Assembly: GCA_016291895.1 (NCBI GenBank)
Contig: JAEEZO010000040.1
Span: 1 to 19,620, forward strand
From: Caryophanales bacterium
GTDB lineage: Bacteria > Bacillota_I > Bacilli_A > RF39 > UBA660
Reading direction: 5' to 3'
DNA length: 19,620 bases
The notes below the pieces were generated by a model. That model did no database searches. It saw only the letters and a program-made list of their open reading frames with translations, and was not told where the DNA came from. Positions within the stretch are counted from its first letter, which is position 1. Every line of letters begins with the position of its first letter. Below, piece after piece: positions 1,884 to 18,566 of the stretch. The position numbers and the translations under genes are program-made.

Positions 1884-1907
1884 AAAAAGACAGAAATGTC
1901 TTTTTTT
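1882..1907 (+). terminator. Intrinsic terminator after the CoA-transferase/flavoprotein operon
   Basis: AAAAAAAGACA and TGTCTTTTTTT pair around a GAAA loop (1893-1896), followed by a T run. It begins in the stop codon of the flavoprotein gene and ends unit A. Confidence 0.85.
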
Positions 1908-1918
1908 ATTATGTTTTC

Positions 1919-1947
1919 TTGCAAAAATTATTCATTTATGATATAAT
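1919..1947 (+). promoter_or_regulatory. Sigma-A-type promoter for the 37-aa ORF/coiled-coil operon
   Basis: TTGCAA (1919-1924), a 17-base spacer and TATAAT (1942-1947), preceded by TG at 1939-1940 as an extended -10. Predicted start of transcription is near 1954, about 20 bases before the small ORF. Confidence 0.8.
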
Positions 1948-1973
1948 ATCCAACTTGTCGAAAGGGGTATATT

Positions 1974-2087
1974 ATGGAGAATATCGACTTAGAAAATCTA
2001 TCTAATGAAGAACTATTAGATTTATTAAATACTTTAAATGGTATGCAAGATGAATTATCAGAAATTGAGGGTGAAATAAATGAATAA
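1974..2087 (+). CDS. Small acidic 37-residue protein, overlapping the next gene
   Basis: A 37-codon ORF between a good promoter (TATAAT at 1942-1947) and the coiled-coil gene. It has an AAAGGGG ribosome site at 1961-1967, seven bases before ATG 1974. The product begins MENIDLENLSNEELLDLLN and ends ELSEIEGEINE: rich in Glu, Asp, Leu and Asn, with no Arg or Lys, and likely one or two amphipathic helices. Its last 8 bases (ATGAATAA) overlap the start of the next gene, implying translational coupling. It could be a real small partner of the downstream protein or a leader ORF that sets its translation. I recognise no family. Position, ribosome site and overlap support expression; function is unknown. 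Confidence 0.65.
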   Translation: MENIDLENLSNEELLDLLNTLNGMQDELSEIEGEINE

Positions 2088-3156
2088 GATGGAAAGAAAT
2101 GATTTACGTATTGAAAAAATCATTAATGAAAGAAAAAACTTATTAGATTTAGTTAAAGCAAATATTATTAAAGATCAAAATGAATATTTAAGAGATGATA
2201 TTGTTAACATCGTTACAGTTTTAGTTAAAGATGAAGAACATGTTAAAAGTTATAAAGCTGTTATTAAAGCTCAAGCTTTAATTGAAGATTTAACTAAACA
2301 AATCGTTGAAGCTAAAACGGTTGAAGAAATAGCAAAGATTCGTAATAAATTAAATTACTATATTAATAAAATTAAAAAAGAAGCTATTAGTCGTGGTATT
2401 TCCGAAGAAGATTGTAATAAGTATTATGAACATGCATCTATCTTAAGAAAAGATATCGCTAAATATATAAGATTCTTAAAGAAAGAACAAAGAATTGAAG
2501 AATTAAAAGAAACAAATAGTAATTATGAAGAGTTATCTATAGAAGATAAAAAGAAATTATCACATGATTTATCTAACGAACGAAGTTATAATACTCGTGT
2601 TATGAAAAAGCCTATTGAATCAACATATACACCAAGAAAGAAACATGAAGAAACTGATCCTGAACTTGAAGAAAGTGAAGAAATAGAAGAAAATCCAATA
2701 GAGAGAAAATTAAGTTTCTTCTCTGAATTATCAAGAATACCAAAAAGAATGGAAACTTTTGAAGATGATGCTGATTATGTATCTACAAAAGTAGGAGATT
2801 TCGATCATAGATATAGAATTATTACACCACATCCATATAAAAGATCAATTCCTGTTAATATGATTAATTATTTAAGAAATATACGTATTTATGCTGTAAA
2901 TAAAGCTAGTATTCGTAAGATGATATGGGATTTCCAAAACTATTATAGTGGAGCTGATTTCTATTCATATATTGAATATAATAGAGCTAATAACTCTTTC
3001 CGTGAAGGATTAAGAAGTGTCTTTAAGAAATCATCTTTATATAATAATGAAAATATTCATTTAAATAATCATCAAAGATGTATTGAATGGATTCTTGAAT
3101 TTATTAAAACAAAAAATATTAAATTTAATTATGAACCAAAAGAAAAGACTGTTTAA
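2080..3156 (+). CDS. Coiled-coil cytoplasmic protein of unknown function
   Basis: I do not recognise this 358-residue protein. Residues 1-145 are strongly helical and charged, with heptad-like stretches (for example IAKIRNKLNYYINKIKKEA) suggesting coiled coil. Residues about 190-208 are a very acidic linker (EETDPELEESEEIEE). The C-terminal part, about 209-358, is a separate mixed region rich in aromatic and basic residues (PHPYKRSIPVNMINYLRNIR). No signal peptide or membrane segment is visible. The ATG at 2080 is favoured by GAGGGTG at 2067-2073 and by its ATGAATAA overlap with the 37-codon ORF; an ATG at 2089 is possible but worse placed. The layout (helical arm, acidic hinge, C-terminal domain) would fit a scaffold or nucleic-acid-associated protein, but that is a guess. 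Confidence 0.75.
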   Translation: MNKMERNDLRIEKIINERKNLLDLVKANIIKDQNEYLRDDIVNIVTVLVKDEEHVKSYKAVIKAQALIEDLTKQIVEAKTVEEIAKIRNKLNYYINKIKKEAISRGISEEDCNKYYEHASILRKDIAKYIRFLKKEQRIEELKETNSNYEELSIEDKKKLSHDLSNERSYNTRVMKKPIESTYTPRKKHEETDPELEESEEIEENPIERKLSFFSELSRIPKRMETFEDDADYVSTKVGDFDHRYRIITPHPYKRSIPVNMINYLRNIRIYAVNKASIRKMIWDFQNYYSGADFYSYIEYNRANNSFREGLRSVFKKSSLYNNENIHLNNHQRCIEWILEFIKTKNIKFNYEPKEKTV

Positions 3157-3167
3157 AGTCTTTTTTT
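3143..3167 (+). terminator. Intrinsic terminator overlapping the 3' end of the coiled-coil gene
   Basis: AAAAGACT (3143-3150) pairs with AGTCTTTT (3157-3164) around GTTTAA, and the T run continues to 3167. The stop codon lies in the loop. Confidence 0.85.
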
Positions 3168-3168
3168 G

Positions 3169-3197
3169 TTGAATAAAATCGCGTTTTATGATATAAT
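3169..3197 (+). promoter_or_regulatory. Sigma-A-type promoter for the HExxH/HEPN operon
   Basis: TTGAAT (3169-3174), 17-base spacer, TATAAT (3192-3197) with TG at 3189-3190 (extended -10). It starts two bases after the T run of the previous terminator. The core TTATGATATAATAT is identical to that of the promoter at 1942. Confidence 0.8.
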
Positions 3198-3218
3198 ATA
3201 GCGCATTAAGGGGTTAAT

Positions 3219-4055
3219 ATGGAAAGTGAAATAATGGCATTATTTCTAGACTATTGTAATAAGAAAAAGTTTATTGATACTTATTTTATTAATCAAGTAT
3301 TTTTAATTATTACAAAGTATATTGATACTAATGGTTACCTAAAAAATGTTATTGTTAATAATAAAGATAAACGTAATGGTAGTTTTTATAATACAATTGA
3401 TCAAGTAATATCATTTAATTTAAAACTAGAACATGATAAATTCTTTATGAAAAAACTTGATTATGATGATTATGTATATTGGTACAATTTATTTGTTTTA
3501 AGAACAATATTCCATGAATTTAAGCATGTTAAACAAGAAGAACATAAATTTGAATATAAATTTGATATTGAACAAAAATTAATTGTTTTAAATGATTTAA
3601 GAACAAAGTTATCTCTAGATACATTAAAAGATCGAATTAAAAGTTTCATAGTGTCATATAAGTATCATCATTATTATATGAAACATCATGATTTATCACC
3701 ATCAGAACGTATGGCAAATATAGAAGCTAGTAAAAGAATTAATGCTTTTTGTGATCAATTAGAAATTGAAAATGAAGGTATTAGAACCTTCCGTATTTTT
3801 GAAGAATTTGAAATGTTAAATGAAATACGAAATGGCTATCATTTAGTAAATAGTTTAACTAATAGTCCATCAATCGATTTTATAAAAGGTATACATGATA
3901 AAGCTAAAGATCAAGTTATCAATATCGATAAAATGTTATCAGATATGTCTTTATCTTTTGATAAAAGATTATATTATGGACTATATTTAACAAGTGATGA
4001 ATATCAAATGATACAAGATGATAATTATCTAAAAGAATTTGTAAAGAGGGTTTAG
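3219..4055 (+). CDS. Putative zinc-dependent metallopeptidase-like protein (HExxH)
   Basis: A 278-residue cytoplasmic protein without signal peptide or membrane segment. FHEFKHVKQ holds an HExxH motif (H99, E100, H103), the zinc-binding and catalytic pair of metallopeptidases, on a predicted helix. A later helix with PSERMANIEA offers E163 or E169 as the third, gluzincin-type zinc ligand; this pairing is inferred from spacing, not proven. The rest matches nothing I know. The ATG at 3219 has TAAGGGG at 3207-3213 in front. It is the first gene of a four-gene operon and is followed after one base by an unknown gene, with the dual-HEPN gene third. A protease activating or restraining a partner protein is one reading; a non-catalytic zinc domain is another. 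Confidence 0.6.
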   Translation: MESEIMALFLDYCNKKKFIDTYFINQVFLIITKYIDTNGYLKNVIVNNKDKRNGSFYNTIDQVISFNLKLEHDKFFMKKLDYDDYVYWYNLFVLRTIFHEFKHVKQEEHKFEYKFDIEQKLIVLNDLRTKLSLDTLKDRIKSFIVSYKYHHYYMKHHDLSPSERMANIEASKRINAFCDQLEIENEGIRTFRIFEEFEMLNEIRNGYHLVNSLTNSPSIDFIKGIHDKAKDQVINIDKMLSDMSLSFDKRLYYGLYLTSDEYQMIQDDNYLKEFVKRV

Positions 4056-4056
4056 T

Positions 4057-4650
4057 ATGAAATTATATGATTTTTTAGATTCAAAGATTAATGTGGGTGG
4101 TTATATTATGCCATCTTATAGACAAAAAGATATTATTTATCTTGAAAAGAAACTTGAAAAGAAAAAGATTAATTTAAATTATGAAACATATGATTATATC
4201 TTTTATTGTTTTAGTGATTTAAATCAATTTTTAAGAATCATTACATGTTTATATCTTCCAGAAGAATTAAAAAGTGATCGCTTTTATGATCAATCATATT
4301 ATTCTATCTTCTTTGCTCTTCAGTATTTTTATAACGAAGAAATACCTATTGATAATGATTTAAGAGATATCATAAATGTCTTTGTAAAAAATAAAATAGA
4401 ATATTTTGAAGATGAAATTAATAAATGTATTTATTATGTTATAACACGTTATTATTGGGTTAATCGTGATAAATTATCAATAGATGGTTTAGATAATTTA
4501 ATTAGTAAATTAAAGAATAATAACTATCGTGATGCTTTTATTATGAATGGTATTATTGATGGTAATGGAAGACCTTTGATATCACAAGAAAACTACTATT
4601 ATTTTATTGACACGTTATTAAAACAAAAAAATAAAATGATTGTTAAATAA
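4057..4650 (+). CDS. Hypothetical protein, second gene of the HExxH/HEPN operon
   Basis: Not recognised. The 197 residues are predicted mostly helical and unusually rich in Tyr, Phe, Asn and Ile, with clusters such as YYSIFFALQYFYNEE and CIYYVITRYYWVNRD. There is no signal peptide, clear membrane helix, catalytic motif or metal site. The start lies one base after the stop of the HExxH gene, with AGAGGG at 4045-4050 as ribosome site, so translation is coupled. An extended -10 box for the following HEPN gene begins right after its stop codon. It may be a partner, inhibitor or sensor for the peptidase or the HEPN protein, but nothing in the sequence settles this. Confidence 0.7.
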   Translation: MKLYDFLDSKINVGGYIMPSYRQKDIIYLEKKLEKKKINLNYETYDYIFYCFSDLNQFLRIITCLYLPEELKSDRFYDQSYYSIFFALQYFYNEEIPIDNDLRDIINVFVKNKIEYFEDEINKCIYYVITRYYWVNRDKLSIDGLDNLISKLKNNNYRDAFIMNGIIDGNGRPLISQENYYYFIDTLLKQKNKMIVK

Positions 4651-4651
4651 A

Positions 4652-4660
4652 TGTTATAAT
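4652..4660 (+). promoter_or_regulatory. Candidate internal extended -10 promoter before the HEPN gene
   Basis: TGTTATAAT (TG at 4652-4653, TATAAT at 4655-4660) lies between the stop of the unknown gene and the ATG at 4677. No good -35 box is visible. If used, the leader would be only about ten bases and hold just the GGAG ribosome site. Confidence 0.4.
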
Positions 4661-4676
4661 ATAATTGGAGTTTATA

Positions 4677-6248
4677 ATGGAGAAAATATCAGATAATAAA
4701 AGAAGAAATATTGATAAAGCTAGAGCTTTTGCTCTTAAATGTATTAGTGGTAAAACCAATTCTTATTCAATTGATGATTATTATACATTACAAATATCAA
4801 AATTCTTATTATTAAAAGAATCAATAATTAAGAAAAATCCACAAACAAATACTATCCATTTTAATTATTCATTGAATAATAATTATCTTAGAATAATTAA
4901 AAGAATTGTTAAGTTATTTGATAATGATAAACTTGTATTAAATAATATTAATGTATCTATTGAACCAAAAAGATATGAAACTGAAGAATTAAAAAGAGTA
5001 TTATTAATCTTTAATAAAATAAGAGACGCTCTTGCTCATGGAGCTTATGAAATAGATATAAATAGACAAGAAATTGTTATTTATAATCATAGTGATGAAT
5101 TAGGTAATAGTTATCATATTGAAGGAAGACTTCCAATCTCTTTACTTGAAGAATTTTCATATTCAGGTTTATCACCAGATATTATTAATATAATCTTAAA
5201 CGGTGAGAAAAAATTATTTAATGTTAATGTCAATCGTGATGCTTTTATAAAGAAAAAAGAATATGAATTAAAGACTGAAAGTCAACTATATAACGAGATA
5301 TATCGAAATGTGAATTTTATTAATGAAGAAGATATTCTTGAAAATCACGATGATAAAAAACTATTTGATAATACTAATATTAATTATAAAAGTGCTTTAA
5401 AAGTAGTAAAAACCTTATTAACGTTTATTAGTGATTCTAAAGATATTGCTGATGATACTAAAAGAATAGCTTATGAATTAGCAGAAAAAGTATTAAATAA
5501 TCCAAAATATAAAGATGCTCTTGAAGGTATTGATAAAGACTTAGCAAAATATAAAAAGATTAGAGAACTAATTAATGAGTTATGTAGACTCTTAGATACT
5601 GGTAAAAATGAAATAGGTATAAAGAATGTAGCAATTTATAATTATATTCAAATGTATCTATCTAATTGTTTAGAATTAAATGAAGAACAAAAAAAGAAAA
5701 TGAGATATCTTAGACTTCGAGAATTAAAATGTAACTTTATAAGAAATAATGATATTGATATTCAAATAAAAGGAACTGTTAAATTAATACTTAAACAGTA
5801 TCGTAAAAGATTAAAACAATGTGTTAATAATCCTGATCCTAGTAGCTTTTATAAAGTACTTGCTGATTTTCATGATGCAACTCTTAATATGTTATTACCA
5901 TTATTTCAAAGTCGTAATGTTTCTATAATAACGAATATTCGTAATGCTGTTGATCATGGTAATATAACTTTTGATGGTGAAAATGTTACATTAACTGATT
6001 CTAATGACTTAGAAAGTGATAAATTTACTTGTTCTTGTACATCAGATCAATTATTTAGTGTTATAAATGATTTAGATACAACTAAAGAAGAAGATTTAGA
6101 ATATGATGAATTAAGTATCATTTGTAGTGAACTAGAACCAATTTTAAGTGATGACGAATCATTATATAAAGAGTTTTATGAAGCTGTTAGATTCTATTAT
6201 CGAAATCGTGTTATTAAACAATTAGAAGAAATAAAAGCAAAAAAGTAG
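4677..6248 (+). CDS. Large protein with two HEPN-type Rx4H motifs; putative ribonuclease
   Basis: The 523-residue product carries two similar motifs far apart: IRDALAHGAYEID (R116 to H121) and IRNAVDHGNITFD (R422 to H427). R-(N/D)-x3-H on a helix, followed by HG and beta strands, is the signature of HEPN domains, many of which are metal-independent endoribonucleases in toxin-antitoxin, abortive-infection and CRISPR effector proteins. The second copy has the classic RNxxxH form. A coiled, Lys/Glu-rich middle (about 240-385) separates them. ATG 4677 follows GGAG at 4667-4670 by six bases; the in-frame TTG at 4665 overlaps that site, so ATG is preferred. It sits third in an operon with an HExxH protein and two unknowns. 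RNase activity is inference; some HEPN proteins only bind nucleotides or RNA. Confidence 0.7.
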   Translation: MEKISDNKRRNIDKARAFALKCISGKTNSYSIDDYYTLQISKFLLLKESIIKKNPQTNTIHFNYSLNNNYLRIIKRIVKLFDNDKLVLNNINVSIEPKRYETEELKRVLLIFNKIRDALAHGAYEIDINRQEIVIYNHSDELGNSYHIEGRLPISLLEEFSYSGLSPDIINIILNGEKKLFNVNVNRDAFIKKKEYELKTESQLYNEIYRNVNFINEEDILENHDDKKLFDNTNINYKSALKVVKTLLTFISDSKDIADDTKRIAYELAEKVLNNPKYKDALEGIDKDLAKYKKIRELINELCRLLDTGKNEIGIKNVAIYNYIQMYLSNCLELNEEQKKKMRYLRLRELKCNFIRNNDIDIQIKGTVKLILKQYRKRLKQCVNNPDPSSFYKVLADFHDATLNMLLPLFQSRNVSIITNIRNAVDHGNITFDGENVTLTDSNDLESDKFTCSCTSDQLFSVINDLDTTKEEDLEYDELSIICSELEPILSDDESLYKEFYEAVRFYYRNRVIKQLEEIKAKK

Positions 6249-6255
6249 GTGGGTT

Positions 6256-6987
6256 ATGGATAATTTTGATTATGATAAATTTAATAAAAGGTATGATAAG
6301 TTTAAAGATAATAACTTACCAACACCATTTTTTGATGATGAAAGACAAGTTTTTGAATATGTATCATTTAATGAAAACTTATTTGTTGATAGTGATTTAG
6401 TCTATCCACTAGGTGATATTTCATGGGCTTATCTAGTATATCCATATTACATTAAAGATTATGCAAGACTTGAAAATGATACTAAAGCTAAACTACAATT
6501 ATTTCATTCACATAGTCATAATTTTAAAGATGTCGTTCATGACTTATATATGCATCCTGAAAGTTTTAAAATAAGTGATGAAGATATGGAATATTATAGT
6601 AATCAAGAATTAGATTATCTTTATAAAATTCAAAAGTTTTTAAATCTTATAAAACTTAAAGATATATATAAAGGTAAAAAGAATCGTTATAATAATTCTT
6701 TATATGAAAAATATAGAGATGCCCATTATATAAGATTAGATAATGATATTATTAATTTAATGATTGATAATAAACTTAATTATATTGTTTCAAGTATAAA
6801 TTATGATATTGGTAAAACCTTTTTAATACTTGATAAAAATAATAATTATAAATTATTTATAAAAACAACTAATAAAGAAAAATGTTTATATAAAGATATT
6901 GATAATTATTATCCAAATGATATTTGTAAAGAAGATACTAAGTTAAATAAATATACTTTTGAAATAGTAGAATATTTAGATAAATAA
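6256..6987 (+). CDS. Hypothetical protein with His cluster, last gene of the HEPN operon
   Basis: Not recognised. The 243-residue product is soluble, rich in Asp, Asn, Tyr and Lys, with no signal peptide. A local histidine cluster, FHSHSHNFKDVVHD plus H100 (H84, H86, H88, H95, H100), could bind a metal, but it matches no motif I can name. The C-terminal third (YIVSSINYDIGKTFLILD onward) looks like alternating beta strands. ATG 6256 has AGGTGGG at 6247-6253, starting in the stop codon of the HEPN gene; the seven-base gap implies co-transcription and coupling. A strong hairpin terminator follows. As the gene next to a HEPN protein it could be an antitoxin or partner, but this is position-based inference only. 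Confidence 0.7.
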   Translation: MDNFDYDKFNKRYDKFKDNNLPTPFFDDERQVFEYVSFNENLFVDSDLVYPLGDISWAYLVYPYYIKDYARLENDTKAKLQLFHSHSHNFKDVVHDLYMHPESFKISDEDMEYYSNQELDYLYKIQKFLNLIKLKDIYKGKKNRYNNSLYEKYRDAHYIRLDNDIINLMIDNKLNYIVSSINYDIGKTFLILDKNNNYKLFIKTTNKEKCLYKDIDNYYPNDICKEDTKLNKYTFEIVEYLDK

Positions 6988-6988
6988 T

Positions 6989-7012
6989 GACAAGTTTTTC
7001 TTGTCTTTTTTT
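6989..7012 (+). terminator. Intrinsic terminator of the HExxH/HEPN operon
   Basis: GACAAG (6989-6994) and CTTGTC (7000-7005) pair around TTTTT, followed by seven T. It starts two bases after the stop codon. Confidence 0.85.
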
Positions 7013-7029
7013 ATTAATTTTTATATCAT
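7001..7029 (+). promoter_or_regulatory. Candidate promoter for the ABC exporter operon, overlapping the terminator
   Basis: TTGTCT (7001-7006), 17-base spacer, TATCAT (7024-7029). The -35 box lies in the right arm of the preceding terminator hairpin. Both boxes are imperfect. Confidence 0.5.
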
Positions 7030-7055
7030 TATTATTGTAGTAAAGGAGAGATAAA

Positions 7056-8798
7056 ATGATTAAAAAAGCAGCTAAATCATTAAGAGAATATAAAAAATAT
7101 GCGATTCTTACACCAATATGTGTTTTAATCGAAGTAATCCTTGAAGTATTAATACCATTTCTAATGAGTAGATTAATTGATGATGGTATTAAAAATAGTA
7201 ATATGAGTGTTGTATACGAAGTAGGTATTATTTTAATTATATGTGCAGCTATATCATTATTCTTTGGTATTGCAAGTGGTGTTTTATCAAGTAAAGCAAG
7301 TAATGGATTTGCTAAAAATTTAAGAAGAGATTTATATCTAAAAGTACAAAGCTTTTCTTTTCATAATATTGATAAGTTTCAAACAAGTAGTTTAATTACA
7401 AGATTAACAACTGATGTATCAAATATTCAATTTGCCTTTCAAATGATTATTAGAATAGCAGCAAGAGCCCCTTTAATGCTTATTGTAAGTATTATTTTTG
7501 CTATGAGGATAAATCCAAATGTTGCTATTATTTATTTGATCGTAGGACCATTATTAGGCTTTATCTTAATAACAATTGCAAGAAGAGCTCATCCTATTAT
7601 GAAAAATGTCTTTGAAACATATGATGACTTAAATAAAGTAGTAGAAGAAAATGTAAGTGGTATTCGTGTTGTTAAATCATTTACTTTAGAAGAAAAAGAA
7701 AATAAGAAGTTTCATAAAGTATCAGAGAAAATATATAAATTATTTGTTAAAGGCGAAAGAATGATAGCCCTTAATGGACCATTTATGCAAATATCAATGT
7801 ATACATGTATGATCTTTATATGTTGGGTAGGAGCTCATTTAATTGTAAGTAGTGGTGAGACAACTTTAACAACAGGTAACTTAATGACTTTATTTACTTA
7901 TACAACGCAAATCTTAGGTAGTTTGATGATGTTATCAATTGTCTTTGTAATATCAACAATATCTCGTGGATCATTAGAACGTATTTGTGAAGTATTAGAT
8001 GAAAAAGTTGATGTAACAAACCCCGATAAGCCTATCTATAATGTCTTTGATGGTAGTATCAAATTCAATAATGTATCTTTTAGTTATATTGGTGATAAGA
8101 ACAAAGAAGCTTTGAAGAATATTAATATTGATATTAAAAGTGGTGAAACTGTAGGTATTATTGGTGGAACAGGTTCTGGTAAAACAAGTTTAGTTAACCT
8201 TCTTCCAAGACTATATGATGTTACTGAAGGCGAACTATTAATTGGTGGTGTTGATGTCCGTAATTATGATCTTAAAACCCTTCGTGATAGTGTTGCTTGT
8301 GTTCTACAGAAGAATGTCTTATTTACTGGAACTATTCTTGATAACTTAAAATGGGGTAAAGATAAAATAACGCTTGAAGATGCAAGACACGCTTGTAAAC
8401 TTGCTCAAATTGATGAATTTATTATGAGTTTACCTGATAAATATGATACTTATTTAGAAGAGGGGGGAGTAAACCTATCAGGTGGTCAAAAACAGAGACT
8501 ATGTATCGCTCGTGCCTTACTTAAAAATCCTAATATTTTAATTCTTGATGATAGTACTAGTGCTGTAGATACAAGAACTGATAAATTAATTCAAGATGCT
8601 TTTATGAAAGATATTCCTAATACCACGAAAATAATTATTGCACAAAGAGTTAATAGTGTTATGGATGCTGATAAGATTATTGTTCTTGATAATGGTAAAA
8701 TAAATGGTATTGGTACACATAAAGAATTATTAAAGAATAATAAAATATATCAAGAAGTATATTCTTCTCAAATGAAGGGAAGTGATAATAATGAATAA
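7056..8798 (+). CDS. Heterodimeric ABC exporter subunit with degenerate ATPase site (TM287-like)
   Basis: A 580-residue half-transporter: N-terminal six-helix membrane domain (about 1-310) and C-terminal nucleotide-binding domain. Motifs seen are Walker A GGTGSGKT (370-377), Q-loop Q418, signature LSGGQ (474-478) and Walker B ILILDD. The catalytic Glu is replaced by D499 and the switch His by Q530 (IIAQR). This pairing of lost residues is typical of the subunit that contributes the degenerate site in heterodimeric exporters such as TM287/288, BmrC/D or LmrC/D. AAGGAGAG at 7042-7049 precedes ATG 7056. Its end overlaps the partner gene by 8 bases. Likely exports drugs, lipids or peptides at the cytoplasmic membrane; the cargo is unknown. 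Confidence 0.92.
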   Translation: MIKKAAKSLREYKKYAILTPICVLIEVILEVLIPFLMSRLIDDGIKNSNMSVVYEVGIILIICAAISLFFGIASGVLSSKASNGFAKNLRRDLYLKVQSFSFHNIDKFQTSSLITRLTTDVSNIQFAFQMIIRIAARAPLMLIVSIIFAMRINPNVAIIYLIVGPLLGFILITIARRAHPIMKNVFETYDDLNKVVEENVSGIRVVKSFTLEEKENKKFHKVSEKIYKLFVKGERMIALNGPFMQISMYTCMIFICWVGAHLIVSSGETTLTTGNLMTLFTYTTQILGSLMMLSIVFVISTISRGSLERICEVLDEKVDVTNPDKPIYNVFDGSIKFNNVSFSYIGDKNKEALKNINIDIKSGETVGIIGGTGSGKTSLVNLLPRLYDVTEGELLIGGVDVRNYDLKTLRDSVACVLQKNVLFTGTILDNLKWGKDKITLEDARHACKLAQIDEFIMSLPDKYDTYLEEGGVNLSGGQKQRLCIARALLKNPNILILDDSTSAVDTRTDKLIQDAFMKDIPNTTKIIIAQRVNSVMDADKIIVLDNGKINGIGTHKELLKNNKIYQEVYSSQMKGSDNNE

Positions 8799-12966: not shown

Positions 12967-13003
12967 AAAAAGAATAAATCATTTTTTTGATTTATTCTTT
13001 TTC
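12965..13003. terminator. Bidirectional terminator between convergent units
   Basis: AAAAAGAATAAATCA (to 12981) pairs with TGATTTATTCTTTTT (from 12988) around six T, giving a 15-base stem with A tracts on one side and T tracts on the other, so it works for both strands. The TGA stop of the minus-strand gene lies at the top of the stem. Confidence 0.85.
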
Positions 13004-14457
13004 ATACTAAGTAACATTATAATAATGATAATACTTACAATAATGATTGCGAGTATTAAATATATTTCAATATTATTATCTTTCTTATCAGGAGGAACAA
13101 CAACTGGTCCAACTTCTTCTAATACAGTAATGTTAATACTATCAGATAAATCTTCATTAGGAGTGCTAACTTTAATCGTAGCATTTCCTTTTTTTAATCC
13201 TTTAATAACACCTACATTATTAATAGATACAATATTTGGATCACTACTAGTAAAGTTAAGAGTTACTTCAGCATCACTTGGTTGAATATTAACATTAAGT
13301 TTCTTTGTTTCATTTTCTCTTAATTCAAGTTCATGAATATCAAAATATATTCTTTCTAATTTAGATTTAACAGTAACATTAATATTTTTTCTAAAACCAC
13401 TTTCTTTTGATGTTATAGTAATTGTTCCAGTGCCAACTTTATTTGTTGATTTTATAATACCATCATTTGATACTTTTAATAAAGTTTCATCATTAGATGT
13501 AAAAGTTACTTCTTTATCAATAGCGTTCTCTGGCAATATCGAATATTCAATTTTTTTTGATTCATTTTTAAATAATGTTATATTATCATCAGTCTTAATA
13601 TCATATACTTCAGGAATAGCGGTAACCGTTATCGAATCAGATAAATTACCATCTTTAATAGTAATAGTTGCTGTACCGCTTTTTAAGGCTGTTATCGTGC
13701 CATTTGTTACTGATATGACACTTGGATAGTTACTTTCCCATTTAGGGTCTATTTTGGCATCTATGGGCGTTACCGTGTATGTTAACTTTTCTTTATCACT
13801 AACATGCATCTTAATATCATTTTCATTTATTTTAATTGATGTTGGATTAACGGGTTCTCCTCTTGTAACAGTGATTGTATAATCTCTCGAATCACCTTGG
13901 GTTGTTGTTACATTGATTACTAACTTGTTATTTCCAACATTAAGTTTTCTTACACCATCACCTTTAATGGTACTTGTTGGCCAATTTGGTTCTGCTTCAA
14001 TAACGATTTCATCAGTACTATAAGGTACTTTTAAAGTATAATCCATTGTTCCATTATAAAACTCTGGACTTATTTTATATCCTTTTACTGATAGCTTTTT
14101 TAGTCCCCATTCGGACAATTTAAAATAAACAGTTTTACCAAGAGATGATATACCATCACAAAGGCAATTACTTTTTACAGATACTCTTATTGATGCATTA
14201 CCAAATTTATGTGGTTGAAATTGAAAATTAGAGCCACTTACACGTACTGCTACAATATCACTTTTACTAATTTCAAAACAATCACTTGAAGGAAGTGACC
14301 CTTTATAAGTAAAATTACCATTAGGTAACCACATATTTTGATGTCCATTAACTCTATATGTTTTACCAGTAACATTTAGTCCTGTAACACATGATTCTGC
14401 GGAGACATTAATATATATAAATAAAAGCAAAAATATTATTAAATATCTTTTTTTCAT
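12979..14457 (-). CDS. Secreted, membrane-anchored surface protein with cadherin-like and Ig-like (BIG2) domains
   Basis: A 492-residue exported protein. Residues 1-20 are a signal peptide (KKR, hydrophobic core, likely cut at VSA-ES). Residues about 23-115 form a domain with four cysteines (C23, C60, C98, C100). Residues about 117-199 match the cadherin-like beta-sandwich pattern (LKKLSVKGYKISPEF to RDYTITVTR). Three bacterial Ig-like group 2 repeats follow at about 205-281, 284-363 and 366-445, each ending in GTATITI-like strands. A Pro linker, membrane helix (463-484) and Lys-rich tail anchor it, so there is no sortase motif. An AGAGGT ribosome site lies just before the ATG. It is the only minus-strand gene, and it stops in TGA. 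Adhesion or cell-wall binding is likely; the ligand is unknown. Confidence 0.85.
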   Translation of the reverse strand: MKKRYLIIFLLLFIYINVSAESCVTGLNVTGKTYRVNGHQNMWLPNGNFTYKGSLPSSDCFEISKSDIVAVRVSGSNFQFQPHKFGNASIRVSVKSNCLCDGISSLGKTVYFKLSEWGLKKLSVKGYKISPEFYNGTMDYTLKVPYSTDEIVIEAEPNWPTSTIKGDGVRKLNVGNNKLVINVTTTQGDSRDYTITVTRGEPVNPTSIKINENDIKMHVSDKEKLTYTVTPIDAKIDPKWESNYPSVISVTNGTITALKSGTATITIKDGNLSDSITVTAIPEVYDIKTDDNITLFKNESKKIEYSILPENAIDKEVTFTSNDETLLKVSNDGIIKSTNKVGTGTITITSKESGFRKNINVTVKSKLERIYFDIHELELRENETKKLNVNIQPSDAEVTLNFTSSDPNIVSINNVGVIKGLKKGNATIKVSTPNEDLSDSINITVLEEVGPVVVPPDKKDNNIEIYLILAIIIVSIIIIIMLLSMKKNKSKK

Positions 14458-14474
14458 ATGACCTCTATATTATG

Positions 14475-14483
14475 AGTATATCA
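14475..14483 (-). promoter_or_regulatory. Extended -10 promoter of the surface-protein gene
   Basis: On the minus strand TGATATACT (TG at 14483-14482, TATACT at 14480-14475) lies 18 bases before the ATG. No -35 box with normal spacing is seen; a TTGTCA at 14508-14503 is 22 bases away. Confidence 0.5.
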
Positions 14484-14500
14484 TAAATAATTAAATTAAT

Positions 14501-14522
14501 AATGACAAATTAAGTCATTTTT
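14501..14522. promoter_or_regulatory. Inverted repeat TGAC-N7-GTCA in a divergent intergenic region
   Basis: AATGAC (14501-14506) and GTCATT (14514-14519) are inverted around AAATTAA, followed by T on the plus strand. It looks like a weak plus-strand terminator, but no plus-strand gene lies upstream. It sits between the start of the minus-strand surface gene and the metalloprotein gene, so an operator is equally possible. Confidence 0.35.
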
Positions 14523-14542
14523 ATTATATAAAGAAAAATATA

Positions 14543-14551
14543 TGTTATTTT
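14543..14551 (+). promoter_or_regulatory. Candidate extended -10 for the metalloprotein-serpin-MazG unit
   Basis: TGTTATTTT (TG at 14543-14544, TATTTT at 14546-14551) just before the ribosome site. The -35 box is not convincing. Confidence 0.3.
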
Positions 14552-14566
14552 ATAAAAAAGGTGTTT

Positions 14567-15475
14567 ATGATTACAATTAATGATTTATCAGAAAACTTAG
14601 TTAATAATAGTAATAGTATCTTTATAACTATTATTATTGACTTTATTAATGATTTTATAGAAACTTTTAATATTTTATCGAAAGAAGAAATCTTAAAAAG
14701 AATTAATCGATTAGAATATATAGGTGTAGAAAAAGATCAATATAAAGTATTTGATGCAGATGCTACTTTTGGATCAGGTATCTATTTTTATATTGCCTTA
14801 AATTCGAAATATCAAGATTCTCCTTTTAGTACAATTAAATCATTTATGTATCATGAACTTATTCATTGTTTATCTTCTCATTATGAAGATAATGAATTAA
14901 AAGAAGGTTTATGTTTAGGGGTTAATAATGGAACATTATTTGATGAAATAATGACTGATTATTATGCCCAACTATTATTATTTAGACGAAAAATATATAA
15001 TTATCGAAGAGATATTATTACAATTAAACCTGATTATCAAGAATATATTGATTCTTATCGAATAGGTTATAATATCTTTTCATCTTTAGGTAAAACATAT
15101 GATTATATTTTTAGAAAAGATTTAATGGAAGCTAAATTTATTGATTCAAGACCATTTATTAATAAATTTAATAGTTTAATTAAAGAACTTAATATTAATT
15201 CATTTGATTATAATAGTTTTATTAATGAAAAAGATTTTCATAAACGTTTATTTAATATAAGCGAAATCTTTGTAAAATATTTAATAAGTTCTTATGAAAA
15301 TAATAATATTGATAAAATCGAAATAATGTATGATCAAAAAATAAATTGTTTTATAAATATGTTATCTAAAGAGAAGCATCAAAATATTGTTGTTCCTAAT
15401 CAACAACTAACTTTTTATATATATAATGAACTATATAAATTCGTTTACAAAGAGAATAAATTATTTATAAGATAA
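14567..15475 (+). CDS. Putative minigluzincin-like zinc metallopeptidase
   Basis: A 302-residue protein with no clear signal peptide, though a hydrophobic stretch lies at about 17-30. YHELIHCLSSHY carries HExxH (H96, E97, H100), and 27 residues later LFDEIMTDYYAQ gives E127 in the E-x2-T-x-Y-x-A context typical of the third zinc ligand helix of gluzincins. Both motifs in the right order make a zinc peptidase fold likely. ATG 14567 is chosen because AAAAAGG at 14555-14561 would overlap a start at the in-frame GTG 14561. It shares no obvious similarity with the other HExxH protein at 3219 outside the motif. It heads a unit with a serpin 50 bases downstream; serpins inhibit serine and cysteine proteases, so it is not the expected target of that serpin. 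Confidence 0.65.
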   Translation: MITINDLSENLVNNSNSIFITIIIDFINDFIETFNILSKEEILKRINRLEYIGVEKDQYKVFDADATFGSGIYFYIALNSKYQDSPFSTIKSFMYHELIHCLSSHYEDNELKEGLCLGVNNGTLFDEIMTDYYAQLLLFRRKIYNYRRDIITIKPDYQEYIDSYRIGYNIFSSLGKTYDYIFRKDLMEAKFIDSRPFINKFNSLIKELNINSFDYNSFINEKDFHKRLFNISEIFVKYLISSYENNNIDKIEIMYDQKINCFINMLSKEKHQNIVVPNQQLTFYIYNELYKFVYKENKLFIR

Positions 15476-15525
15476 ACTTGATTTTAACTATTATTAGTTT
15501 TAAAATTAAGAGTAGAGAGGTGAAT

Positions 15526-16812
15526 ATGAATAAAAAGAGTGAAGTATTAATTCCAATAATAGTTATTGTAATTGGATTATTATGCTTTGGACTATCATTT
15601 GTTTTTAAAGATAAAATAGATGATAAGGGTGGTAATGGTGGAAATAACGATGGTAATAATGATACAACTTATGTAGGAAACTACAATTCAAATTTAATTA
15701 AAGCCGTACATGAAGATAAAAAAGGAATTAATTATTTATTAAGTCCATATTCAATTGAAATAGCTTTAGATTTACTTAAAGAAGGAGCTAATAATGATAC
15801 ATTAAAAGAACTTAATAAAGCTGTTCCTGAACGTACTTTTAAAGATTTGAATAGTACTAATGTAAGAATTAGTAATGCAACATTTATAAATGAAAGATAT
15901 AAAGGTGTTGTTGAAAAGACATTTACTGATAATTTAACTAATAAATATCATGCAGAAGCAATCGTTGATAACATTACACCTGAAATTATTAATGGTTGGG
16001 CTAAAGAAAAAACAAATGGTATGATTGATAAAGTAGTTGATCAAATAACACCAGATTTTGTCTTCGGTGTTGTTAATGCTGTTGCTCTTGACTTGAAGTT
16101 CCAATATCAATTTGAATGTAATAGAACAAGAGAAGTAGAATTTACAAAAGTAGATAATACAACAATGAAAGTTCCAATGATGAATGCAACATATGAAAGA
16201 AATATTAAATATGTTGTTAATGATGAATATTCAAGTATTGCCCTTCCTTATAAGAGTGAAGGAGAATATAACTATGAATTAGTAGCTATTCTTCCAAAAG
16301 ATTTAGATGGATTCATTGATAGTTTAAATGATGAAAAAATTAATAATGTTATGAAAGATGCCAAAGAAGCAAATGATAAAACGAATGTATATCTAAGTCT
16401 TCCACAATTTAATTATGATTTTAAATTAGAAGATAGTGACTTTATAAAAGTATTAAATAAACTTGGAATTAATTTAGCATTTGATGCTGTAAAAGCTGAT
16501 TTCTCAAGATTTATTACAAGAGAAAATATGGAAAAAGTTAATATACCTAATATGTCAGTTACTAAGGCTGTACACAAAACATTTATTGATTTAAATGAAG
16601 TAGGTACAAAAGCAGCTGCTGTTACATATTTTGGTGTAGATAAAAATGAAGCTGTACTTGAGCAACCTGAAGTTGTTCGTATTAACTTTAATAAACCATT
16701 CGTATATATGATTAGAGAAACTGGAACAAATGAAATTTTATTCTTTGGTATCGTTTATGAACCAAAAGAATGGACAGGTTCTACTTGTGCTAGTATAGAT
16801 AGGGAGTTATAA
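15526..16812 (+). CDS. Membrane-anchored bacterial serpin (protease inhibitor)
   Basis: Serpins trap serine or cysteine proteases by a suicide mechanism. This 428-residue protein starts with a short charged N-terminus and a membrane helix (about 8-27), then a Gly/Asn linker (34-47), placing the serpin domain (about 53-415) outside the cell. Serpin marks are the NYLLSPYSIEIAL segment, HKTFIDLNEVGTKAAAV (hinge at 357-365, small residues as needed for an inhibitory loop) and VRINFNKPFVYMIRE near the end. By alignment with antitrypsin G360 is P15, putting P1 near N374, but the loop is about six residues longer, so the cleavage site is uncertain. ATG 15526 has AGAGAGGTG (15514-15522); an upstream TTG at 15478 lacks a site. 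One base separates it from the MazG-like gene. Confidence 0.88.
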   Translation: MNKKSEVLIPIIVIVIGLLCFGLSFVFKDKIDDKGGNGGNNDGNNDTTYVGNYNSNLIKAVHEDKKGINYLLSPYSIEIALDLLKEGANNDTLKELNKAVPERTFKDLNSTNVRISNATFINERYKGVVEKTFTDNLTNKYHAEAIVDNITPEIINGWAKEKTNGMIDKVVDQITPDFVFGVVNAVALDLKFQYQFECNRTREVEFTKVDNTTMKVPMMNATYERNIKYVVNDEYSSIALPYKSEGEYNYELVAILPKDLDGFIDSLNDEKINNVMKDAKEANDKTNVYLSLPQFNYDFKLEDSDFIKVLNKLGINLAFDAVKADFSRFITRENMEKVNIPNMSVTKAVHKTFIDLNEVGTKAAAVTYFGVDKNEAVLEQPEVVRINFNKPFVYMIRETGTNEILFFGIVYEPKEWTGSTCASIDREL

Positions 16813-16813
16813 A

Positions 16814-17110
16814 ATGAAAGATGGACAAAATTTAGTAAAAGGATATGTAGAAAGAAGACAAATCAAAAACAATTATTTAAGTTGGTATATTGATTTTATC
16901 AATGAATATGGTGAACTAGGTAGAACTCTTTTAAGAGGTAACCAATATTTTGATAAGGATATTGAATTAACTGATGAAATGAAAGAACATTTAGGAGATG
17001 TATACTTTAATATCTTAGCTTTTACTAACGAACTAGGTGCCGATGCTGAAGAATGTCTTGCTAAAGCATTAGCAAAATATGAAAGAAAATTTAATGGAAC
17101 AAATAATTAG
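16814..17110 (+). CDS. MazG-like nucleotide pyrophosphohydrolase-fold protein
   Basis: A 98-residue all-helical protein of the length of single-domain MazG-like enzymes, which hydrolyse nucleoside triphosphates to monophosphate and pyrophosphate. NEYGELG (E31, E34) matches the first metal-binding motif, and EHLGDVYFNILAFTNELG matches the typical E-E-L-G-D-V-l and following helix. The ExxD Glu is replaced by H59 (H59-x2-D62), with E58 just before it, so activity may be altered or lost. It follows the serpin stop by one base, with AGGGAG at 16800-16805, yet its presumed cytoplasmic role has no obvious link to an extracellular inhibitor. A hairpin terminator follows. The family call is fair; the substrate is unknown. 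Confidence 0.7.
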   Translation: MKDGQNLVKGYVERRQIKNNYLSWYIDFINEYGELGRTLLRGNQYFDKDIELTDEMKEHLGDVYFNILAFTNELGADAEECLAKALAKYERKFNGTNN

Positions 17111-17126
17111 ACCTTAGGGTCTTTTT
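17109..17126 (+). terminator. Intrinsic terminator after the MazG-like gene
   Basis: AGACC (17109-17113) and GGTCT (17118-17122) pair around TTAG, followed by T. It begins inside the stop codon. Confidence 0.75.
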
Positions 17127-17133
17127 ATTTTAG

Positions 17134-17161
17134 TTGAATTATTCTAAAAAAGCTTTATAAT
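17134..17161 (+). promoter_or_regulatory. Sigma-A-type promoter of the kinase-like gene
   Basis: TTGAAT (17134-17139), 16-base spacer, TATAAT (17156-17161), 22 bases before the ATG. Confidence 0.65.
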
Positions 17162-17183
17162 ATATAAATTAATTGAGGATATT

Positions 17184-17834
17184 ATGGAAAGTAAAGAACT
17201 TACAAAAGAAGAAATATATCATATTTTATTCTTTCTTGAAGAGATCGACCGAGGAAGTTATGGTATCGTTAAAAAGGTTAATAATGATACTTGTATAAAA
17301 ATATATTATAAAGATATCTTTAATACTTATGCTAAAAGAGACATTAATGCCTTAGATGAGGATATTAATCTATTAATAAAAGTTTATGAAGATACATCAA
17401 GTGATAAAAATACACAAGAAATAAGAGAAAACGAAAGAAAAAAATTAGAATATTTACATAAAATAGGTTTAGTAAAACGAGTATTAACATATAAAGGATA
17501 TATGATTGGTATAGAAATGAATTATTATGACGATTATATTCCATTAAATAAAGCAAGAAATTTCTTAGAAAAAGAAGATTATAAAGAAATCTTATATCGT
17601 ATTAGAACGAAACTTGATGAATTTTTAAAAAATAATATTTTCCCTCAAGATTTAAGTCGAAGTAATATCTTAATTAATATTAAAACATTAGATATTGTCT
17701 TTATTGATTTAGATGATTGTTATACAAGATATGAAGATGATGATTATCTAGCTAAAAAGCCTCTTGTAAAACAAAGTTTATTTGACCGTTGTAATCAAAA
17801 ATATCGTGAGATAGAACGAAATATTAATAAGTAG
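17184..17834 (+). CDS. Small protein-kinase-like (ePK/APH-like fold) protein
   Basis: A 216-residue soluble protein with the kinase motifs in order: a glycine loop RGSYGIVKKV (23-32), ATP-binding lysine K39 in CIKIYY, a possible helix-C glutamate in ENERKKLEYL, a catalytic loop PQDLSRSNIL (D156 and N161 with the normal D-L-x3-N spacing), and IDLDD with D175 at the DFG place. The HRD histidine is replaced (P154-Q155-D156). It is shorter than usual (about 260 residues), with a reduced C-lobe. It may phosphorylate a protein or small molecule; an aminoglycoside-phosphotransferase-type role is possible but its motifs are closer to ePK. GAGG at 17174-17177 precedes ATG 17184. It has its own promoter and terminator, so it is a single-gene unit. 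Confidence 0.65.
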   Translation: MESKELTKEEIYHILFFLEEIDRGSYGIVKKVNNDTCIKIYYKDIFNTYAKRDINALDEDINLLIKVYEDTSSDKNTQEIRENERKKLEYLHKIGLVKRVLTYKGYMIGIEMNYYDDYIPLNKARNFLEKEDYKEILYRIRTKLDEFLKNNIFPQDLSRSNILINIKTLDIVFIDLDDCYTRYEDDDYLAKKPLVKQSLFDRCNQKYREIERNINK

Positions 17835-17839
17835 TAAAA

Positions 17840-17869
17840 GGCCGTATTAATTGACAATACGGTCTTTTT
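17840..17869 (+). terminator. Intrinsic terminator of the kinase-like gene
   Basis: GGCCGTATT (17840-17848) pairs with AATACGGTC (17856-17864) around AATTGAC, with one G-U pair, followed by five T. Confidence 0.85.
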
Positions 17870-17879
17870 ATGATACAAT
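17851..17879 (+). promoter_or_regulatory. Strong consensus promoter inside the preceding terminator
   Basis: TTGACA (17851-17856, full consensus), 17-base spacer, TACAAT (17874-17879) with TG at 17871-17872. The -35 box lies in the loop and first base of the right arm of the terminator hairpin. Transcription should start near 17886, about 24 bases before the next ATG. This is the best -35 box in the window. Confidence 0.8.
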
Positions 17880-17909
17880 TAGAAAGTTTTTTTAAGGGGG
17901 AAATTATTT

Positions 17910-18566
17910 ATGCAAAATAAACAATTTGAATTTGTTCATTATAGTGATTCTTTATTAGAAGAATATCAAAACGCTAGAGGATATACAGGAATAAATCCTA
18001 ATAATCCCGTAATTATGGAAGATATAGAAAAATTTATTAAAGAACGTAAACGTAGTAATGATCTATATGGTGAATTACTAGATTGTTTAATGTTAGATTG
18101 TCGTGATTGTGATACAATCGAAAATATTAATGCTAAAGAGTTTTTAATATCACGTACATGTGATTATGATACGACTGTAGCAACATCTGATAGAAAAATA
18201 TATGATGATGTTCGAAGAGATCGTGTTATGATTGGTAATATCAAAGTATTTGATGGTATTCCTGAACTTGTAACAAAAAAAGATGGTACAATGGTTTTCA
18301 CTAGTCTAGATTCATTTAAAACAATTATGGTTACAAATCCTAGAGTTAAAGCTATGAGATATTTTTCTGAAATATTTAAAGTAGGTAAATATAATTTAAT
18401 AATGGGTATTAATGGAATGGATCATGATTATGATCGTAAACAAAAAGTTAATACAATGAATAAAATAGCAGATACTTTTGGTAATAGCATTATTGCTCGT
18501 TCAATATATGATCCATCTACTGATGATTATGCTTATGTAATCGCTACAAGAAATTTTAGAAAATAA
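17910..18566 (+). CDS. Hypothetical cytoplasmic protein with Cys motif
   Basis: Not recognised. The 218 residues contain no signal peptide or membrane helix. The first half is helical (MEDIEKFIKERKRSNDLYG), followed by CLMLDCRDCD with C59, C64 and C67, and C84 further on, four cysteines that could bind a metal or iron-sulfur cluster. The second half alternates strands and helices (FKTIMVTNPRVKAMRYFS, then YNLIMGINGMDHDYDRKQK). It is transcribed alone from the strongest promoter in the window, with AAGGGGG at 17894-17900 before ATG 17910, and ends at its own terminator, so substantial expression is likely. No partner can be named from context. Confidence 0.75.
   Translation: MQNKQFEFVHYSDSLLEEYQNARGYTGINPNNPVIMEDIEKFIKERKRSNDLYGELLDCLMLDCRDCDTIENINAKEFLISRTCDYDTTVATSDRKIYDDVRRDRVMIGNIKVFDGIPELVTKKDGTMVFTSLDSFKTIMVTNPRVKAMRYFSEIFKVGKYNLIMGINGMDHDYDRKQKVNTMNKIADTFGNSIIARSIYDPSTDDYAYVIATRNFRK

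Follow-up and report, generated by a model that had tools for sequence, protein, structure and literature searches.

A rare family of putative tandem-HEPN proteins from uncultured Bacilli

RNases of the HEPN superfamily serve many phage-defence and toxin systems. In Cas13, the effectors of type VI CRISPR systems, two HEPN Rx4H sites lie far apart in one polypeptide chain, and this HEPN pair forms a composite RNase site. In Csm6, the two HEPN domains that make up the composite RNase site are paired between two chains, and the arrangement has been compared with those of Ire1 and RNase L (PMC4748810). The Csx1 group carries a HEPN dyad on a Rossmann domain, and the eukaryotic protein Swt1 has a HEPN dyad in one protein, which is fused to a PIN domain and is called inactive in the 2013 survey of the superfamily (PMC3710099). 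The same survey gives the HEPN signature as Rx4-6H with N, D or H following the Arg; many HEPN families have a second acidic residue, typically as Ex3[KR] (PMC3710099). No stand-alone bacterial two-HEPN protein was found in the literature titles and abstracts searched, which cover few subscription journals.

A protein with two Rx4H motifs, termed P0001, is encoded in a Caryophanales bacterium (assembly GCA_016291895.1). The window, i.e. the whole stretch of DNA analysed, is 19,620 nt in length and consists of positions 1-19,620 of contig JAEEZO010000040.1. Features of the gene and its product are as follows.

4677..6248, plus strand: gene of the putative tandem-HEPN protein P0001, 523 aa (open frame, start, homologue family)
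4665..4670, plus strand: TTGGAG, ribosome-binding-site-like, upstream of ATG 4677 (sequence reading)
4770..5219, plus strand: N-terminal HEPN-like domain, about residues 32-181 (AlphaFold2 model, family alignment; limits approximate)
4818..4835, plus strand: E48-x4-K53, conserved acidic/basic pair of the N-terminal domain (E in 12/12, K in 11/12 proteins)
5022..5039, plus strand: first Rx4H motif, R116-D-A-L-A-H121 (H in 12/12, R in 11/12)
5235..5606, plus strand: middle region, residues 187-310, of low model confidence and family-variable length (model, spacing comparison)
5607..6245, plus strand: C-terminal HEPN-like domain, about residues 311-523 (models, family alignment; limits approximate)
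5940..5957, plus strand: second Rx4H motif, R422-N-A-V-D-H427 (12-protein alignment, in which the row of genome G072 is misaligned here)
6989..7005, plus strand: terminator-like hairpin after the co-directional gene 6256-6987 (consensus scan)

Since TTGGAG precedes the ATG at 4677, this codon is a better start than the TTG at 4665 that was assigned mechanically. The initial annotation had pointed to two HEPN-type Rx4H motifs, each followed by strand-like sequence. Both motifs are real in the 523-aa translation, at R116-H121 and R422-H427. Such pairs are infrequent: among 462 open reading frames of at least 200 aa from loci L001-L045, at least one R[ND]x3H string is present in 51 and two are present in none. 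Of 20 proteins scanned in the window, only P0001 has two motifs and one other protein has one.

A database protein search with P0001 yielded five homologues (P0002-P0006), one with 99%, one with 73% and three with 51% identity, and both motifs are invariant in these close homologues. Searches of the database with alignments A1 and A2 recovered the same five proteins only, among the 7995 candidates sharing most words that were scored in each case. Entry to genomes of uncultured Bacilli was provided by loci of the neighbouring CoA-transferase (genomes and loci carry G and L labels, respectively); in the nine genomes of these CoA-transferase loci, a profile search with A1 gave no match (0/9). In larger and partly overlapping draws, the profile matched in 4/385 genomes from the order of G001 (the three accepted on reading of the open reading frames), 6/291 from the family of G259 (five accepted), 5/193 from the family of G341 (five accepted) and 2/18 from the genus of G001 (both accepted); in the class, matches were present in 3/395 genomes and none was accepted. 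One more two-motif protein, in G068, came from a scan of eight accepted genomes with the Pfam model PF18736. In total, these searches enlarged the family, which is rare and unnamed, by nine proteins (497-629 aa) encoded in eight genomes.

The added members are strongly diverged. Two family members of one genus share 23% identity over 474 aa, and several blastp links that were kept are weak (G072, E 0.002; G068a, 4e-4; G741, 8.5e-7). The protein G068b was retained for its two motifs, a blastp link being absent at E up to 0.01. Five candidates were dropped on their open reading frames: sequence reading named that of L049 GpsA-like and that of L051 MiaB-like, and those of L052, L053 and L059 are unrelated to the family. 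Genome G068 carries two different two-HEPN genes (L068 2902-4557 and L073 1102-2640), and a DUF5131 gene adjoins the second of these. No relatives turned up in phage, plasmid and viral collections searched with P0001, A2, the G821 protein and the G068b protein.

Conservation was assessed in an alignment of 12 proteins, i.e. P0001, P0003, P0004 and the nine added proteins, with the near-duplicates P0002, P0005 and P0006 excluded. Only M1, E48, H121 and H427 are invariant columns, and K53, R116, R422 and N423 are present in 11/12 proteins. The deviations are confined to a few members. In G741, Lys replaces R116, and in G068b the K53 column holds Glu, with an ESHILR string elsewhere in the chain. 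G072 is misaligned at the second motif, and therefore the His that it contributes to the H427 column does not belong to its motif; its own second motif is RNCFSH at residue 562. When G072, G068a, G741 and G068b are set aside, E48, K53, R116, H121, R422, N423 and H427 are invariant in the remaining eight. The expectation that R and H would be kept in homologues is borne out: the five close homologues show no change in either, and both motifs reappear in distant relatives of 17-30% identity. An N or D follows the Arg at both sites in the 12 proteins (in G741, Lys stands at the Arg position), and both halves show the Rx4-6H spacing and the polar residue after Arg of the HEPN superfamily. The N-terminal half has E-x4-K instead of Ex3[KR], and none was seen in the C-terminal half. 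Judged from sequence, the two Rx4H motifs of P0001 are features of the family and not accidents.

The distance between the two motifs varies in the family from 174 residues (G129) to 456 residues (G072), and therefore these proteins lack a fixed middle domain; what stays constant in the family appears to be HEPN plus HEPN. With the six close sequences only, the two halves do not align (profile comparison probability 1.4%). With eight proteins the half-versus-half comparison gave a probability of 81% and a score of 38.3, for which no shuffle control was run, and with twelve proteins 92% and 46.1; wider windows gave 70-85%. In 200 motif-keeping shuffles of the twelve-protein C half, the mean score was 34.3 and the maximum 39.6, and none of the 200 reached 46.1; the maximum of 100 full shuffles was 15.7. 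Because the motif-keeping shuffles average 34.3 and reach 39.6, much of the real score stems from the motif, with a further contribution from the flanks. The N and C halves accordingly resemble each other somewhat beyond the motif, and may be read as two HEPN domains of one subtype.

An AlphaFold2 model of P0001, made with six sequences (pLDDT 67, pTM 0.60), is better at the ends than in the middle. The model is helical, with both motifs at helix ends and three strands following each: 124-127, 132-135 and 150-153 after the first motif, and 430-433, 436-442 and 449-455 after the second. Residues 342-523 modelled alone gave a pLDDT of 79 and a pTM of 0.72; this piece excludes the helix at 311-330, which, judging by the family alignment, would belong to the C-terminal domain. 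Fold searches with the models gave no HEPN structure among the matches listed, and a PDB sequence search with alignments A1 and A3 gave no HEPN protein.

P0001 matched no HEPN model, and searches of Pfam, PADLOC, NCBIfam and PHROGs gave it no convincing match; no HEPN profile exceeded its cut-off in P0001 or in the nine distant relatives scanned. Below threshold, HEPN models recur at the motifs of the relatives. The Pfam scan of the nine distant members gave 13 matches, and three members have sub-threshold HEPN-type matches over the second motif (HepT-like, E 0.0066; DUF4145, 0.29; HEPN_Swt1, 0.094). In the PADLOC scan, three of the nine gave four matches, all to HEPN-named models at a motif (CARF_HEPN, 0.014 and 0.0015; RTasHEPN, 0.0071 and 0.01). 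DUF4145 and DUF86 (PF01934) are placed within HEPN in the 2013 survey (PMC3710099).

Four of the five homologues, P0003-P0006, are tagged in precomputed annotation, based on a newer model version, as PF18736 (the pEK499_p136 HEPN family). The tag was not reproduced by hmmscan, in which P0001-P0006 gave no match. At the PF18736 cut-off of 26.6 bits, no match was above cut-off in the eight host genomes (four with matches at E up to 10), in the control genomes (matches in 4/14) or in 295 genomes of the phylum (matches in 10). Two of the four host-genome matches were read, and these are the two-motif protein of G068 and an Abi_2 protein. Among the ten PF18736-matched loci of the phylum, the seven that were read have no protein with two R[NDH]x3H strings. 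The survey table gives a conserved Rx4-6H for pEK499_p136-like proteins, as in P0001, and mentions no two-HEPN form (PMC3710099).

The initial annotation had likened the two widely spaced sites to those of Cas13. The presence of two HEPN motifs in one chain holds, but it is the sole resemblance. Cas13 proteins are longer than the 497-629 aa of this family, whose members have no fixed middle region, and the variable inter-motif spacing speaks against a Cas13-like guide-binding lobe of constant form between the two motifs. In addition, P0001 has no PADLOC match, and for the region 1900-7100 the 20 repeat families listed, of 26, include no repeat array, none of them exceeding two copies. With Csm6 and Csx1, the proposed mode of action is shared, i.e. 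a composite site from two HEPN domains, but no CARF or Rossmann sensor is recognized in P0001. CARF models do not match P0001, and one relative has a Csa3_N match at E 0.12. Swt1 has two HEPN domains in one protein, as is proposed for P0001, but differs in its PIN fusion, its eukaryotic origin and its inactivity.

The AbiF-type proteins show a further likeness. An Abi_2 protein encoded in G341 (L075 919-1893), which is among the genomes with a two-HEPN gene, carries the HEPN motif RNSIAH; its chain has a single motif, unlike that of the family member. Profile similarity to the AbiF HEPN does not go beyond the motif, since the real score is equalled by 21-29 of 100 shuffles in which the motif is kept.

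The genes 3219-4055, 4057-4650, 4677-6248 and 6256-6987 are co-directional, and the terminator-like hairpin closes the series. The consensus scan found four terminator-like sites versus 0.4 expected, whereas promoter-like sites are at chance level (58 versus 56.7 expected); the window has no Rfam match. GC content is 0.20-0.25 over 2001-7000, compared with 0.29-0.34 before it and 0.26-0.32 over the 5 kb that follow. Since 14001-16000 and 17001-18000 likewise have low GC, the dip is weak evidence of import. A relative of the FMN reductase follows the CoA-transferase in 5/45 loci, and the CoA-transferase has no match in the eight host genomes. Neighbours of the distant family members vary between loci, and the tandem-HEPN gene showed no linkage to defence genes or mobile elements.

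Elsewhere in the window, 15520-16812 is a serpin gene (PF00079, E 1.6e-63); serpins are protease inhibitors uncommon in bacteria. A surface-type protein with Big_2 and cadherin-like domains is encoded on the minus strand at 12979-14457. The products of 3219-4055 (HEFKH) and 14561-15475 (HELIH) are HExxH proteins without a Pfam match and with no mutual blastp similarity listed. The product of 6256-6987 is a protein of unknown function.

Several explanations of the two motifs can be weighed together. Initially, two HEPN domains had been proposed for one chain, and the conserved motifs, the E-x4-K pair, the similar halves and the weak HEPN matches of relatives speak for this. As P0001 matches no HEPN model and the fold searches list no HEPN structure, the fold is one that we infer; it is nonetheless likely for both halves, given the motifs, their conservation, E-x4-K and the half similarity. 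A helical protein unrelated to HEPN that carries two Rx4H strings would agree with these same database results, including the lack of any curated family above its cut-off. That explanation is very unlikely, considering that no comparison open reading frame has two such strings, that conservation in the family is highest at these strings and that HEPN models score at both sites in relatives. P0001 is thus very probably a HEPN protein on these sequence criteria. Its two helical domains might still bind RNA or nucleotides and lack RNase activity, or only one of the halves might be active. Non-cutting RNA binders are known among the HEPN families (PMC3710099), and the conserved E-x4-K was seen in the N-terminal half only; the retention of R, N/D and H in both halves across strongly diverged members argues against a non-cutting protein, which appears quite improbable, and P0001 is probably an active RNase.

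The biological role may be approached through the gene neighbourhood. A HEPN toxin whose antitoxin is a distinct protein, the product of an adjacent gene (4057-4650 or 6256-6987, for example), would fit the close, co-directional spacing, with 26 bp between 4057-4650 and ATG 4677 and 7 bp from the stop codon to 6256-6987. However, 2080-3156, 3219-4055, 4057-4650 and 6256-6987 have a match in none of 72 loci, those of the distant members included. Relatives of 3219-4055 are present in 7/98 genomes and those of 6256-6987 in 9/98 (family of G001, in differing contexts), with no two-HEPN gene beside them in the three and six contexts read, respectively; 4057-4650 has weak matches only, in 5/98. No conserved partner gene was found in the loci of distant relatives, and the partner-gene idea is not supported; a toxin-antitoxin pair is distinctly unlikely. 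A tandem-HEPN RNase acting on the cell's own RNA in ordinary physiology, such as rRNA, tRNA or mRNA processing or growth regulation, is less improbable but still unlikely. Some members lie among housekeeping genes, e.g. L070 between ligA-like and hrcA-like genes named by sequence reading, linked defence genes were not seen, and HEPN enzymes also act in RNA processing (PMC3710099). Nevertheless, the family is rare and patchy (accepted genomes 3/385, 5/291 and 2/18) and diverges fast even within one genus. The patchy occurrence, the divergence and the common role of HEPN proteins, all of them indirect, tilt slightly towards a role in defence rather than another.

The reading that is preferred, as slightly more probable than not, is that of a stand-alone tandem-HEPN endoribonuclease with a composite site formed in cis and conditional use in defence or stress. 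Each half would be a HEPN-like helical domain, in which R-[ND]-x3-H closes a helix, and three strands and more helices come after it. The two halves would pack together within one chain, and R116/H121 and R422/H427 would face one RNA strand as a composite, metal-independent endoribonuclease site, for which the HEPN pairs of Csm6 and of Ire1/RNase L provide the model (PMC4748810). As one chain carries two intact sites, pairing in cis is the simplest form, and an intramolecular pair is reasonably probable. The variable middle and C-terminal parts may keep the enzyme inactive or respond to a trigger, and the ensuing RNA cleavage would lead to growth arrest, as in abortive infection or stress. A bolder proposal, and a rather doubtful one, is that the family is a guide-free, minimal counterpart of Cas13, with two HEPN halves forming one RNase site and inserts, replaced from lineage to lineage, acting as a switch in a one-gene abortive infection system of small-genome gut Bacilli.

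The P0001 family can be considered a family of putative stand-alone tandem-HEPN proteins. It has two intact putative HEPN sites in a short chain with no recognized guide RNA, sensor or partner gene, an arrangement that is unnamed in Pfam, PADLOC, NCBIfam and PHROGs. If the Cas13-counterpart proposal were correct, the family would show how a tandem-HEPN effector is built when no guide RNA is involved. If the preferred reading is correct, the protein would provide a compact model for two HEPN domains cooperating within one chain, and its gene would represent a novel type of candidate defence gene in uncultured Bacilli with small genomes.
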